Positions 24,171 through 63,816 of a stretch of 64,000 nucleotides of DNA are shown here, in pieces. The stretch comes from Pseudomonas palmensis (GTDB lineage: Bacteria; Pseudomonadota; Gammaproteobacteria; Pseudomonadales; Pseudomonadaceae). The DNA is taken from assembly GCF_017848315.1 (NCBI RefSeq), contig NZ_JAFKEC010000022.1, forward strand, positions 1 to 64,000. Direction: 5' to 3'. Within the stretch, counting starts at the first letter, position 1, and the number at the start of each line of letters is the position of its first letter. A program made the translations under genes and the position numbers. A model generated the notes under the pieces. It was not told the origin of the DNA and ran no database searches. It was given only the letters and a program-made list of their open reading frames with translations.

Positions 24171-24362
24171 TTACTGCTGCTGCGGCAGTTTGTCGATTGG
24201 ACCGCAGCCACCAATAACCTTGGAGATGGAAACCGAAGGGTGGAACAGGTAATCGTACGAGCAGTTCTTTGGCTGGTTGTACACTTGGCCAGTGCAACCG
24301 GACAGCAGGGCAACACCCGAAACAACAGCGATTGCGACCGATGCCTTGATAAACTTTTTCAT
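24171..24362 (-). CDS. Small DUF4223-type lipoprotein (YhfL-like)
   Basis: 63 residues. Signal peptide with lipobox LLSGC, the cysteine at about 23, then the conserved NCSYDYLFHPSVSISK and GGCGP of YhfL/DUF4223 proteins. It should be an outer- or inner-membrane-anchored lipoprotein of unknown role. Dedicated terminator downstream at 24108-24134. Confidence 0.85.
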   Translation of the reverse strand: MKKFIKASVAIAVVSGVALLSGCTGQVYNQPKNCSYDYLFHPSVSISKVIGGCGPIDKLPQQQ

Positions 24363-24550: not shown

Positions 24551-25816
24551 TCACACCGGCGACACTTCGCCTGCTGCCGAGGCTTCGGCGGGCATGGCAA
24601 GGCGCAGTGCGCGCCTGATGTCTGCATTGATATCGTCAGTGTCTTCCAGCCCCACAGAGATTCGGACCAACCCGGGAGGTACGCCCATTCGCTCCAGGTC
24701 GGTGCCGCCTGCTCGGGCAAAACTACCGTAGTGATAACACAGGGATTCAATGTTCCCGAAGGTGGTACCTGTTCGTATCAATTGCAGTTGACTAACAAAG
24801 ATTGTGCCCGCTTCCTGCGAAGGCAACACAATGGCAATAAGACCTGTATGCAATGACGGATCAATGCCGTTGGCCTGTGCGCTCCTGGTCGACCATACGG
24901 CACGCCATTGCAACGTGGGAAACTCCTGATTCAACATGGCAATGACAGCAAGTGCATTGTCGGCATGCTTTTTCAATCTGAGCGCAAGTGTTCTCAAACC
25001 ACGCACCGTAAGCCAGGCCGAAAACGGGTCAAGGATCAGCCCGGCACTTTCCCTGTGAGACTTCAATGCCTTGAACAGATCCGGGTCATTGGTACTTACC
25101 ATCCCGCCCATTACATCACCGTGTCCATTGATATGCTTGGTGGTGGAATACAAGGTCACTGCCGCCCCCAGCGACAACGGCTTCTGGCAAAGTGGCGTTA
25201 GAAAGGTATTGTCGACAACCAGAAGAACGGCGTTCTTCATGCAAAGTTGCGCCAGTTCCGCAATATTGATGTCCAGAAAAGCCGGGTTGGTAGGTGCCTC
25301 GATAAAGATCATTCTGGTGTCGGGCCGCAGGGCCGCCTGAAACGCCGCCGTTTCGTACGCTTCAATGACCGACAGCGTCATGCCACGCTGACGTGTTTCA
25401 TGCTCAAGCTGTTCGATCACTTCATAGAACAGGCCGCGGGGCACGATGACGTGGTCACCTGCGCCCAGCAGCGCACGAAAGACCAGCAGGCAGGCGGTCA
25501 TTCCGCTGTTGACTGCCAGACTGTAGGCACAGTGTTCGATGGCACGAAACTTCGCCTCCAGGACGGAAACGGTGGGGTTGGCGTAGCGCTGGTAGGCAAA
25601 GTTTTCCCCCTCTGCATTGCCGAGCATGTCCCTCCCCGCTTCAACGGAGTCCAACAGTGCCGCGGAATTGCAGATCAGTGCGGGCACTGGAAACTGATCC
25701 AGGCCCGCCTCATGTTGCCCCAGGTGGATCGCGCGGGTAGCAGCGCCGAGTGGCGAAGACAGCAGATAATCACGGCGCTGCCGTTCACGCGGGCTCACGT
25801 TTTTGGTTGGGCTCAT
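24551..25816 (-). CDS. Cys/Met-metabolism PLP enzyme (CGS/methionine gamma-lyase fold) of the YcaO module
   Basis: 421 residues. YQRYANPT (75-82) supplies the PLP-phosphate Tyr/Arg from the neighbouring subunit. VDNTF has the PLP aspartate at 202, and STTKHINGHGD the Schiff-base lysine at 227. SGMTA near 104 is the phosphate loop. All catalytic elements are intact, so a beta/gamma-elimination or replacement on a sulfur amino acid is expected. It lies 80 bp downstream of the YcaO gene on the same strand, with no terminator seen between. Inference: it could release sulfide for YcaO-dependent thioamide or azoline chemistry, or act on the peptide itself. It is less GC-rich than the core genes. 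Confidence 0.8.
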   Translation of the reverse strand: MSPTKNVSPRERQRRDYLLSSPLGAATRAIHLGQHEAGLDQFPVPALICNSAALLDSVEAGRDMLGNAEGENFAYQRYANPTVSVLEAKFRAIEHCAYSLAVNSGMTACLLVFRALLGAGDHVIVPRGLFYEVIEQLEHETRQRGMTLSVIEAYETAAFQAALRPDTRMIFIEAPTNPAFLDINIAELAQLCMKNAVLLVVDNTFLTPLCQKPLSLGAAVTLYSTTKHINGHGDVMGGMVSTNDPDLFKALKSHRESAGLILDPFSAWLTVRGLRTLALRLKKHADNALAVIAMLNQEFPTLQWRAVWSTRSAQANGIDPSLHTGLIAIVLPSQEAGTIFVSQLQLIRTGTTFGNIESLCYHYGSFARAGGTDLERMGVPPGLVRISVGLEDTDDINADIRRALRLAMPAEASAAGEVSPV

Positions 25817-25896
25817 GAATGGCCTGATTCCGAAAGAGAGGGCTGATCCAGCCCGTTGATGATGACCTGCCCCTGGCGACCTGAGGGTGGTGCCGT

Positions 25897-27114
25897 TTAC
25901 TCGTACTTGTAGCAAGGCACCACTTTTCCACCCAGCGAGACGATGGAGAACCTTTCCATTTTCGGCATGACGGCACAGGCCAGGCTTACTTGGGCCGCGC
26001 TGCAATGCAGCTCCTTTACCCAGATGGGATGATCCGCCTTGAAGCACTCGTGCTTCAGGTGCAGCAAATGTTGATCCAGTGGCATTCTGTCCGGGTCGCG
26101 TGGCATGGGGGCAGATGTCATCCTGGCGCGCTGCGTCGAATCAAACGCCAGGCGCAGGCACCGCAGCAGCCGTGGGTGCCGTGCCAGGTTGTTCCTTGAA
26201 CCTGTCCATTCCCGGGTGACCTCTTCCAGGCCTTCGGCGACTTTGTATTGCTGCACCAGCTCCTTGATGGCGCGTGCTGCGGCGTGGCTCGGGTACAGCG
26301 AACAGCCACCGCCAACCACATGCACATCGGCGATTGTCTTGTCTGGGCAATAGGCAATGAAAACGGGATAGGGTATCTGGCTGGTGGCGTCGAACACTTC
26401 GATCGAGGCCCCGATAGCACCTTGCGCATCGCGCAAGGTTTGCAGCAATGCTTGCGGCATCGAGGCGTGAGCGATCTTTCTTATGGGTGTTTTGCACTCG
26501 TAAAAGAAGTGCTGTGCAATAAAGCGGCCGATACCGTGGCGCTCTATGACTTCGCTCGCGGCATGTATCGCCGCCTCGGCGAACCCGTAGCCTGCTGCCA
26601 CACCCGTACCACAGGAATATCGGCGCGCAGCGCCATAGTCGGTATCATCGCCAGCGATGGCTTCATTGGCATACTGATGATTGATCAGGAATGACGGGTA
26701 GTGCAGATCAGCGCCGCCTGATGCTTCATGCGCCGCAAAGTGGATGACAGCCATCTGTGCAGTCTTCGAATGACGAAGCATCTGCACCGGCAGTACGTCC
26801 TGCAGGGCCGGTTGGGAAACTACCGAATCAAAACACTGCAAGGCGCTATGGGAGCGTAGTTGAAGTGGCCCCATGCTATGTTCATACGCTTCATACTTGG
26901 CGCCGATGCGCGCCTCTGCTTCATACCCTTTTCCGCAGCCGACAGACTCCATGTCACGGCTGTCAAAGGGGAATTCAAGCGTGGCCACAGTGCTGGACAG
27001 CGGGCTACCGTAACGGTTCAGGGTTACCTGTATTCCTTCGTTGATAAAATGCTGATCTATCACACTTTCTGCATCTTGCAATGACAACGTACGCTCGGGA
27101 GCAATCATGTTCAT
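25897..27114 (-). CDS. YcaO-domain protein, candidate peptide cyclodehydratase/thioamidase
   Basis: 405 residues. The ATP/Mg site of YcaO enzymes is complete: GKG at 61-63, E75 and E78 in KYEAYEH, CGTGVAAG near 168-175, and E188, E191, R192 in SEVIERHG. YcaO proteins phosphorylate peptide backbone amides to form azolines, thioamides or amidines. The C-terminus (KVVPCYKYE) lacks the PxPxP tail of azoline-type YcaOs. No E1-like/Ocin-ThiF partner, TfuA or dehydrogenase is adjacent. The small peptide gene at 27,304 lies upstream across a terminator and the PLP enzyme lies downstream. The upstream ribosome site is weak. Confidence 0.82.
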   Translation of the reverse strand: MNMIAPERTLSLQDAESVIDQHFINEGIQVTLNRYGSPLSSTVATLEFPFDSRDMESVGCGKGYEAEARIGAKYEAYEHSMGPLQLRSHSALQCFDSVVSQPALQDVLPVQMLRHSKTAQMAVIHFAAHEASGGADLHYPSFLINHQYANEAIAGDDTDYGAARRYSCGTGVAAGYGFAEAAIHAASEVIERHGIGRFIAQHFFYECKTPIRKIAHASMPQALLQTLRDAQGAIGASIEVFDATSQIPYPVFIAYCPDKTIADVHVVGGGCSLYPSHAAARAIKELVQQYKVAEGLEEVTREWTGSRNNLARHPRLLRCLRLAFDSTQRARMTSAPMPRDPDRMPLDQHLLHLKHECFKADHPIWVKELHCSAAQVSLACAVMPKMERFSIVSLGGKVVPCYKYE

Positions 27115-27145
27115 CGGCTGGAATTTCCATATACGCTGAAAGAAA

Positions 27146-27170
27146 AATGAGGCGCAGCAAGCGCCTCATT
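27146..27170 (-). terminator. Intrinsic terminator/attenuator between peptide gene and YcaO
   Basis: Perfect 10-bp arms AATGAGGCGC (27146-27155) and GCGCCTCATT (27161-27170), loop of 5. On the minus strand a U-rich run follows (27147 down to about 27139). It starts 8 bp past the peptide stop codon and 32 bp before the YcaO start, so it should make abundant peptide mRNA with limited read-through into the enzymes. Confidence 0.85.
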
Positions 27171-27178
27171 CATTTTCA

Positions 27179-27304
27179 TCACTCAGCCAGTACAGCAGCT
27201 TCTTCTGGCGTGAACTCTTCTTCCAGCTTGACGCTATCCACTTCGTCTTCAGCAGGTTGGTCGACTTTGAACTCGTTGATATACATGCAGCAGTACTTAC
27301 CCAT
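27179..27304 (-). CDS. Candidate RiPP precursor peptide, 41 aa
   Basis: Begins MGKYCCMYINEF, then a strongly acidic helical tail (QPAEDEVDSVKLEEE, ending FTPEEAAVLAE). AAGGA lies nine bases before the ATG at 27304. The Cys-Cys pair sits at residues 5-6, and the remainder has no cysteine. Position directly upstream of a YcaO gene, a strong ribosome site and its own terminator all point to a modified-peptide substrate. The layout, with modifiable residues at the N-terminus and an acidic C-terminal part, recalls bottromycin precursors with a follower peptide. I do not recognise the family. Confidence 0.7.
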   Translation of the reverse strand: MGKYCCMYINEFKVDQPAEDEVDSVKLEEEFTPEEAAVLAE

Positions 27305-27514
27305 GGAAATATCCTTTTCATGATGGATTCATGTGCGCACTTGTTTTCAGGTGCAGGTCGAGAGTAATACCGGCCACTTTCACTGCCCATAGGAAAAGTC
27401 CTGACTCCAGGCGTGAATACGTGGTTTATGGGGTGTTACTTGAGTGCCAGAATGCGCCGAAACAGGGAACAGTGCTTCCTACGCACAATTGCTGTGCGCA
27501 CACGAAAAGCAAAA

Positions 27515-27551: not shown

Positions 27552-27579
27552 TATGGCGGAGAGATAGGGATTTGAACCC
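27552..27579. other. attL core, 28 bp
   Basis: Begins TATGGCGGAGAGATAGGG and ends TTTGAACCC; identical to 63725-63752. It corresponds to the CCA end, acceptor strand and part of the T arm of tRNA-Ser left behind when the phage rebuilt the gene at the other end. Confidence 0.93.
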
Positions 27580-63724: not shown

Positions 63725-63752
63725 TATGGCGGAGAGATAGGGATTTGAACCC
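63725..63752. other. attR core, 28 bp
   Basis: Identical to 27552-27579; covers the 3' part of tRNA-Ser, with the first divergent base at 63753. The phage supplies this half of the gene. Confidence 0.93.
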
Positions 63753-63816
63753 TAGGTACTGTTGCCAGTACAACGGATTTCGAATCCGTCCCGTTCGGCC
63801 ACTCCGGCATCTCTCC
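63727..63816 (-). tRNA. tRNA-Ser (anticodon CGA)
   Basis: 90 nt with a 7-bp acceptor stem (GGAGAGA with TCTCTCC), anticodon loop TTCGAAA in a 5-bp stem, a long class II variable arm (TGTACTGGCAACAGTACC) and an encoded CCA. It remains complete after phage integration at its 3' end. Transcribed leftward, toward the prophage. Confidence 0.97.

Follow-up and report, generated by a model that had tools for sequence, protein, structure and literature searches.

The cassette and its three genes

In a stretch of 64,000 nucleotides from Pseudomonas palmensis (GCF_017848315.1, contig NZ_JAFKEC010000022.1, positions 1 to 64,000; hereafter the window) we have analyzed a compact cassette of three genes, encoding a short peptide, a standalone YcaO-domain protein and an enzyme of the cystathionine gamma-synthase/methionine gamma-lyase (CGS/MGL) fold that depends on pyridoxal phosphate (PLP). 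A first, sequence-only reading of the window had described the genes as a co-directional module, and all three open reading frames (ORFs) were indeed recovered where expected on the minus strand (Table 1). The start of the PLP enzyme at 25816 is backed by alignment with five relatives, the longest ORF beginning at 26047. Peptide, YcaO and PLP genes follow each other in the same order in six distinct genomes, five from Pseudomonas and one from Collimonas.

Table 1. Features of the cassette, with positions in the window.
Feature	Position	Strand	Remarks
Precursor peptide, 41 aa	27179..27304	minus	Conserved in 6 genomes; putative core 1-12, spacer 13-30, tail 31-41
Intrinsic-terminator-like hairpin	27145..27171	minus	Between peptide stop and ycaO start; 11-pair stem, T tail
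Standalone YcaO-domain protein, 405 aa	25897..27114	minus	ATP-site acidic residues intact; without proline-rich C-terminus
CGS/MGL-fold PLP enzyme, 421 aa	24551..25816	minus	K227 present; F130-Y131-E132 motif
Imperfect inverted repeat, possible regulatory site	27333..27355	minus	5' of the peptide gene; by-eye alignment of upstream regions

The peptide starts with the motif MG[KM][YWF]CCMYINEF, in which position 3 varies between K and M and position 4 between Y, W and F, and the residues C5, C6, M7, Y8, I9, N10, E11 and F12 are invariant in the six genomes. When codons were compared pairwise among the five Pseudomonas cassettes (Collimonas was excluded for an indel), codons 5-12 showed 22 synonymous and 0 nonsynonymous differences, spacer codons 13-30 showed 23 and 74, and tail codons 31-41 showed 27 and 11, respectively. 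This pattern argues for translation in the 41-residue frame, in which the core is frozen, the spacer loose and the tail conserved; taken with the recurrence of the three genes in six genomes, the absence of nonsynonymous change in codons 5-12 is more than chance would produce. Two ORFs overlapping the peptide, one of 74 residues on the minus and one of 80 residues on the plus strand, were rejected, as codons 5-12 of the 41-residue frame vary synonymously only. As judged from conservation, the layout would be of the bottromycin type, with an N-terminal core and a C-terminal follower. The peptide gave no match in NCBIfam up to an E-value of 10; NF033414, the bottromycin precursor model of that collection according to excerpts of PMC8442711, was not confirmed to be present in the library used.

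In the scan concerning positions 27145-27171, 7 terminator-like sites were counted in the region, compared with a mean of 3.5 in shuffled sequences. A hairpin between peptide and ycaO recurs in all five cassettes with the PLP enzyme that were folded, including the window and leaving out genome G132, with z-scores from -2.45 to -6.14, and in Collimonas the stem is kept while its bases have changed. It may act as an attenuator that yields more peptide than enzyme. The inverted repeat upstream was found by eye in all five Pseudomonas cassettes, but not in Collimonas.

The YcaO protein matches PF02624 with an E-value of 2.6e-24 and 86.6 bits, compared with a gathering score of 25.7, and is the only YcaO that this query found in the genome at E ≤ 0.001. 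The five close YcaOs compared all carry the ATP-site residues named in the sequence-only reading (E75, E78, E188, E191 and R192); across 19 family members, E75, E78, E191 and R192 occur in every one and E188 in at least 90%. Azoline-forming cyclodehydratases of the thiazole/oxazole-modified microcin type go with an E1-like or Ocin-ThiF partner and a PxPxP C-terminus. The cassette YcaO ends in VVPCYKYE, without a proline-rich PxPxP end, and the five neighbouring proteins that were scanned include no E1-like protein, TfuA, dehydrogenase or protease, as the first reading had stated; for E1-like proteins, no search of the whole genome was made. TfuA, the hallmark of YcaO-TfuA thioamidation, is missing from the whole genome in a search that was positive in the control Methanosarcina acetivorans. 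These results support the earlier description of the locus as a compact module for peptide modification by a YcaO, with a PLP enzyme and distinct from the azoline and TfuA-thioamide types.

The PLP enzyme was likewise correctly recognized as intact: it matches PF01053 with an E-value of 4.2e-84 and 282.7 bits (cut-off 27), and the PLP lysine K227 is invariant in all six genomes. R385, at a position that we take to be that of the carboxylate-binding arginine, is invariant as well, which suggests a free amino acid as PLP substrate. Y75, R77 and K227 correspond to Tyr58, Arg60 and Lys210 of MGL, and at the position of Ser339 a hydroxyl group is retained in T352. In all six sequences, however, Tyr113-Gly-Cys115 of the Citrobacter freundii enzyme is replaced by F130-Y131-E132 (roles of the MGL residues Tyr58, Arg60, Tyr113, Cys115, Lys210 and Ser339 as given in excerpts of the literature). 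The genome also encodes MetZ-, MGL-, MetY- and MetC-like paralogs with 27-35% identity to the cassette enzyme. In the four paralogs aligned for the active site, which leave out the MetC-like L052, MetZ has Phe at the Tyr113 position like the cassette enzyme and the other three have Tyr; as the genome's own MetZ carries this Phe, we rejected the notion that F130 marks a loss of catalysis. Among the best 25 of 64 NCBIfam families, no cut-off was reached for any equivalog of methionine gamma-lyases, cystathionine lyases or synthases, or sulfhydrylases, the best score being 251.4 bits compared with the 440 required.

Occurrence and sister cassettes

Among 398 genomes of the genus Pseudomonas, 26 contain a YcaO match at E ≤ 1e-20, which fall into 4 close ones with 78-100% identity, the window included, and 22 distant ones with 28-33% identity. 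An ortholog of the PLP enzyme (E ≤ 1e-70) occurs in exactly the four genomes with a close YcaO and in none of the 22 with a distant one. A scan of 84,980 species genomes with short peptide patterns, sensitive to close relatives alone, turned up P. aegrilactucae and Collimonas humicola as additional carriers and found P. donghuensis and P. brassicae again. In a phylum-wide sample of 398 genomes the YcaO was matched at E ≤ 1e-15 only in the genome of the window, so that the cassette is rare, and neither viral contigs, searched by YcaO alignment and by the core pattern, nor phage records gave a match. A 32-residue match in Halobacteriovorax (L031) was discarded as spurious, since there is neither an ORF of YcaO length nor an MG-peptide at the site. 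Duplicate genomes were counted once (L002 = L028, L004 = L029, L003 = L041). The neighbourhood comparison proposed with the sequence-only reading therefore has a split outcome: YcaO homologs occur without the PLP gene in 22 of 26 Pseudomonas genomes and in five plasmid loci, but within the close clade the PLP gene is present in six of six.

At 21 of the 22 distant Pseudomonas loci, an upstream MG-peptide of 41-47 residues with an acidic tail and a methyltransferase accompany the YcaO. These sister cassettes (L005-L026 except L023, and L042-L048) come from 21 of the 398 genomes; one of them, L017, is a short locus of 3,019 bases at a contig end. They share with the cassette of the window a homologous YcaO, a precursor with MG-core and acidic tail and, in L008, the one sister locus folded, a hairpin before ycaO (z -3.14). 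They differ in having a methyltransferase in place of the PLP enzyme, often a hydrolase, and no Cys in the peptide. Both of the two sister methyltransferases scanned match PF13649, while no methyltransferase match was obtained in the loci with the PLP enzyme, and the two enzymes were never found together in any locus examined, with flanks mostly of 1.5 to 8 kb. Five of the seven extended sister loci (L042-L048) encode a full-length hydrolase of the prolyl aminopeptidase family, which is reduced to a 54-residue piece in L044 and gave no match in L045; with 157 bits it stays below the TIGR01249 cut-off of 259.75. The sister methyltransferase cassettes, the topology of N-terminal core and follower, and the hairpin between peptide and ycaO had all escaped the earlier reading.

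Between cassettes with the PLP enzyme and sister cassettes, YcaO identity is 25-43%. In a tree of which 10 of 16 inner branches are weak, the YcaOs with a PLP partner form one clade (100/99) that is sister to the methyltransferase type of Pantoea (100/100). The YcaO of the Pantoea and Acinetobacter plasmids is 42% identical, and its methyltransferase is 28% identical to that of Pseudomonas; two Pantoea matches and one from Acinetobacter, which have their replicon cluster in common and do not differ in match score, are treated here as a single lineage. YcaO and methyltransferase were seen in L032 and L033, on large plasmids from Pantoea and from a record labelled Acinetobacter venetianus; a Pantoea eucrina plasmid (L036 5817-9044) encodes a FeeM-like N-acyl amino acid synthase and an MG-peptide in addition to these two. 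Further afield, a Streptomyces plasmid (L034 7590-10779) combines a Cys-containing MG-peptide and a YcaO with a SagB/ThcOx-type oxidase, and in Nonomuraea (L035 7619-9107) an MG-peptide directly precedes the YcaO.

MG start and acidic tail together characterize the peptides of 21 of 22 distant Pseudomonas loci, of the Pantoea eucrina plasmid and of the six genomes with the PLP enzyme. As a control, 754 ATG-started ORFs of 30-60 residues were taken from 14 stretches, of which 41 start with MG; only six of these have at least six acidic residues among the last 20, and all six are cassette peptides. Note that the control missed four further cassette peptides, whose first in-frame ATG lies further upstream. 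By sequence, the cassette of the window belongs to an MG-peptide/YcaO family, with homologous YcaO, MG-core and acidic tail but not the methyltransferase partner.

Readings of the cassette chemistry

That the locus is a cassette for a ribosomally synthesized and post-translationally modified peptide (RiPP) with an N-terminal core is, on the conservation pattern described above, very probable. The reading that we favor as a whole, a minimal RiPP cassette of bottromycin topology, is a nearly balanced call that we hold tentatively. Gene content, joint inheritance, the conservation of core and tail, the alternative partners and the association of Cys with the PLP enzyme are observed, while the chemistry is what we infer throughout. 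Peptide would be made in excess over the enzymes by way of the hairpin before ycaO, its C-terminal tail would act as recognition follower, and methionine aminopeptidase would expose Gly2. With ATP, the YcaO would activate an amide in the backbone of this N-terminal core, and the step common to the family would most likely be the capture of this activated amide by the N-terminal amine to form an amidine, possibly with an extra thiazoline at Cys5-Cys6. The PLP enzyme, taking the place of the methyltransferase, would bind a free amino acid and act on or with the invariant Cys pair.

Several observations point in this direction. Three of the 21 methyltransferase-type peptides lack Ser, Thr and Cys alike within residues 2-12, which rules out azoline formation as the reaction common to the family. 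PLP enzyme and methyltransferase take each other's place as partners, an argument for a YcaO step that is independent of the PLP enzyme, and all but one of the precursors start with Met-Gly, which points to the N-terminal amine as the nucleophile. Follower topology, attack by Gly and standalone YcaOs are described for bottromycin in the excerpts of the literature at hand, and streptamidine, in the accessible portion of PMC8442711, uses an N-terminal amine as nucleophile with a residue other than Gly at its N-terminus. We expect an intramolecular cyclization by the YcaO rather than a thioamidation, with somewhat better than balanced confidence. Adjacent cysteines are found in all six cores accompanied by the PLP enzyme, while none of the 21 methyltransferase-type Pseudomonas peptides contains a Cys. 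This association suggests that the PLP enzyme acts at the Cys pair, a role that we regard as possible but somewhat doubtful, and the enzyme looks like a lineage-specific tailoring enzyme tied to the two cysteines.

The most natural chemistry for the PLP enzyme would be to attach a homoserine unit to a Cys of the peptide, but it might also carry out an elimination, supply sulfide or have some unrelated role. In a specific form, suggested by analogy with cystathionine synthase and daptide YcaOs, O-acylhomoserine would be activated and attacked by a precursor Cys thiol in a gamma-replacement that yields peptidyl-cystathionine (S-aminocarboxypropyl-cysteine, +101.048 Da), whose new amine could be the YcaO nucleophile for an amidine ring. 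We judge this unlikely as it stands; if true, CGS-fold chemistry on a ribosomal peptide would constitute a new kind of post-translational modification.

A number of points weigh against the favored reading. No product is known for the cassette, and genes for a protease, an exporter or immunity are missing from it. In a profile comparison with solved structures, MJ1094 comes nearest (1.9e-22), ahead of MusD, TruD and LynD; MJ1094 is presumably an archaeal YcaO of the thioamidation kind, and as nearest structure it suits thioamidation at least as well. An AlphaFold2 model of the YcaO from five sequences reached a mean predicted local distance difference test score of only 35, and no structural claim was drawn from it. 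The association of Cys pair and PLP enzyme spans one clade and so amounts to one evolutionary event. On the Streptomyces plasmid, the Cys of the MG-peptide goes with a SagB-type oxidase and not with a PLP enzyme, so that Cys in the wider family is not always tied to a PLP partner. The one exception among the 22 distant loci, L023 (1355-2670), combines a distant YcaO with a 25-residue MSY peptide and has no methyltransferase; this cassette may be decaying, or Gly2 may not be needed.

Among the alternatives, the sequence-only reading had proposed that the PLP enzyme supplies sulfide for thioamidation. As a dedicated donor replacing TfuA, it would free sulfide or persulfide from cysteine, homocysteine or a relative, with which the YcaO would thioamidate the N-terminal core. 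The CGS/MGL fold with its intact PLP lysine, the genome without TfuA, the YcaO without a proline-rich C-terminus and the proximity to MJ1094 all suit this proposal. It is no longer the first choice and appears rather unlikely, as the same YcaO family is found beside a methyltransferase and without a PLP enzyme at 21 of 22 other Pseudomonas loci, the Tyr113 and Cys115 positions of MGL are replaced, and the MetZ-, MGL-, MetY- and MetC-like enzymes already encoded in the genome mean that a dedicated source of sulfide is not obviously needed. PLP lyases also release ammonia, from which the YcaO might form a linear backbone amidine; ammonia is seldom limiting in cells, however, and this explanation, the least credible of those considered, would leave the Cys pair unaccounted for. 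YcaOs that use exogenous ammonia are cited in an excerpt of PMC12338566. For the sulfide proposal, it should be added that the available portion of PMC13063428 calls the sulfide route to the substrate of the TfuA-less E. coli YcaO not known.

The invariant Cys pair in six of six cores would also fit a YcaO that simply turns Cys5-Cys6 into thiazolines, in the way that one YcaO of the bottromycin pathway treats its Cys, with the PLP enzyme making a separate free amino acid or clearing by-products, and standalone YcaOs act in azole formation for bottromycin (excerpts of PMC7136475). Such a scheme is nevertheless improbable in view of the 21 sister peptides without Cys, three of them without Ser, Thr or Cys in residues 2-12, and of a YcaO that has neither a proline-rich C-terminus nor a dehydrogenase among the neighbours scanned. 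Finally, the small protein might not be a RiPP precursor but a regulator or carrier for YcaO and PLP enzyme in a metabolic task, as could be argued from the tiny cassette and its want of exporter, protease and immunity genes. Frozen core, variable spacer and conserved tail, as well as the terminator-like hairpin between peptide and enzymes, are however RiPP-like, and so is the similar layout of the sister cassettes with their peptidase-family hydrolase, full-length in five of seven extended loci; we consider a metabolic role very improbable.

Among known systems, bottromycin is one of the closest to the favored RiPP reading. According to the parts of the literature accessible to us, its precursor BtmD/BotA has an N-terminal core, a C-terminal follower and a Met-Gly start, and its standalone YcaOs have no E1-like partner; for the cassette, this likeness is seen through sequence conservation. 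The bottromycin pathway, however, has two YcaOs, radical SAM methyltransferases, a P450-type enzyme, an amidohydrolase, an aminopeptidase and a transporter, where the cassette has one YcaO and the PLP enzyme, and neither a bottromycin-type radical SAM methyltransferase nor an amidohydrolase was found among the five neighbours scanned. Thioamidation systems, both with TfuA (thiovarsolins, the std cluster) and without it (E. coli, archaea), share the standalone type of YcaO with MJ1094 as nearest structure, but the cassette combines a genome without TfuA, a small precursor with a putative N-terminal core and a PLP partner. Daptides likewise rely on both a PLP enzyme and a YcaO within a single pathway, in which, according to the excerpts at hand, the PLP step leads toward an amine that the YcaO captures; they differ in using a class-III aminotransferase (PF00202) and C-terminal chemistry instead of a CGS fold and an N-terminal core. 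With methionine gamma-lyase and O-succinylhomoserine sulfhydrylase the PLP enzyme shares the fold, the PLP lysine, the phosphate-binding Tyr and Arg and, with MetZ, Phe at the Tyr113 position, but it is set apart by its F-Y-E motif and by the equivalog cut-offs not reached among the families compared.

Our searches of the open-licence literature in PMC retrieved nothing on a YcaO paired with a CGS-fold PLP enzyme, and a prior description in the subscription literature outside these searches is possible; nor did the open-licence search return a description of the Pseudomonas MG-peptide/YcaO/methyltransferase cassettes. For a Pseudomonas pan-genome, the available part of PMC8719888 lists two YcaO types, microcin B17-like and YcaO-TfuA clusters, and that of a Pantoea ananatis paper gives BAGEL matches to a bottromycin-type YcaO, possibly related to the cassette (PMC8824727). 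We conclude that the cassette is real and mobile, a variant of YcaO RiPP cassettes with a core-first precursor, for which these searches yielded neither a description nor a second case of its partner enzyme. It bears on the question of which enzymes a standalone YcaO can have as partners, with a PLP enzyme of the sulfur-amino-acid type here where the sisters have a methyltransferase, and it would show either the sulfur route of a TfuA-less YcaO or a new peptide use of CGS-fold enzymes. Core-first precursors with a follower, of which bottromycin is the best-known example, seem to be the basis of a whole family of very small cassettes in Pseudomonas, Collimonas and Pantoea-type plasmids, a picture that the MG-peptides beside more distant YcaOs in two actinobacteria extend.

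Genomic setting and mobility

Acquisition of the cassette, suggested in the sequence-only reading, is supported by its different locations. In P. aegrilactucae and P. brassicae it directly follows the 3' end of an intact tRNA-Ser(cga), in P. donghuensis it comes after tRNA-Thr(tgt), and for G132 and Collimonas the stretch of sequence around it yielded no tRNA. With tRNA-Ser, tRNA-Thr and a third locus as sites in Pseudomonas, and with a betaproteobacterium as a further host, several insertions of one unit are indicated, in support of a horizontal spread. In G132 (L041 1348-6507) the cassette adjoins a protein of 1719 residues that is RHS-like by eye.

The first reading had placed the cassette beside tRNA-Ser, which is true of P. 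aegrilactucae and P. brassicae, but in the window only a 3' tRNA remnant (approximately 27553-27579) adjoins it, and the intact tRNA-Ser(cga) is found at 63727-63816, 36 kb away. The stretch that in relatives leads from tRNA-Ser back to purC (TIGR00081 in L027) begins at 63725 in the window. Between remnant and intact gene, positions 27580-63724 appear as a prophage inserted in tRNA-Ser(cga), with genes for an endolysin, an Rz-like spanin and tail-fibre assembly at 29.8-31.3 kb.

The lower G+C content claimed for the module holds against the conserved core, with 52-59% in the cassette and 62-67% at 20.0-23.0 kb, but not against the adjoining 22.5-24.5 kb, which lie outside the cassette and are low as well (53-57%). 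On this side, 20.0-24.0 kb match P. donghuensis and two other Pseudomonas genomes that have no cassette there, the match ending at approximately 24.0 kb or earlier. Between cassette and conserved core lies a gene for a small DUF4223 lipoprotein (24171-24362); in genome G015 the DUF4223 match is far from the rest of the flank, and the gene may be part of the variable region.

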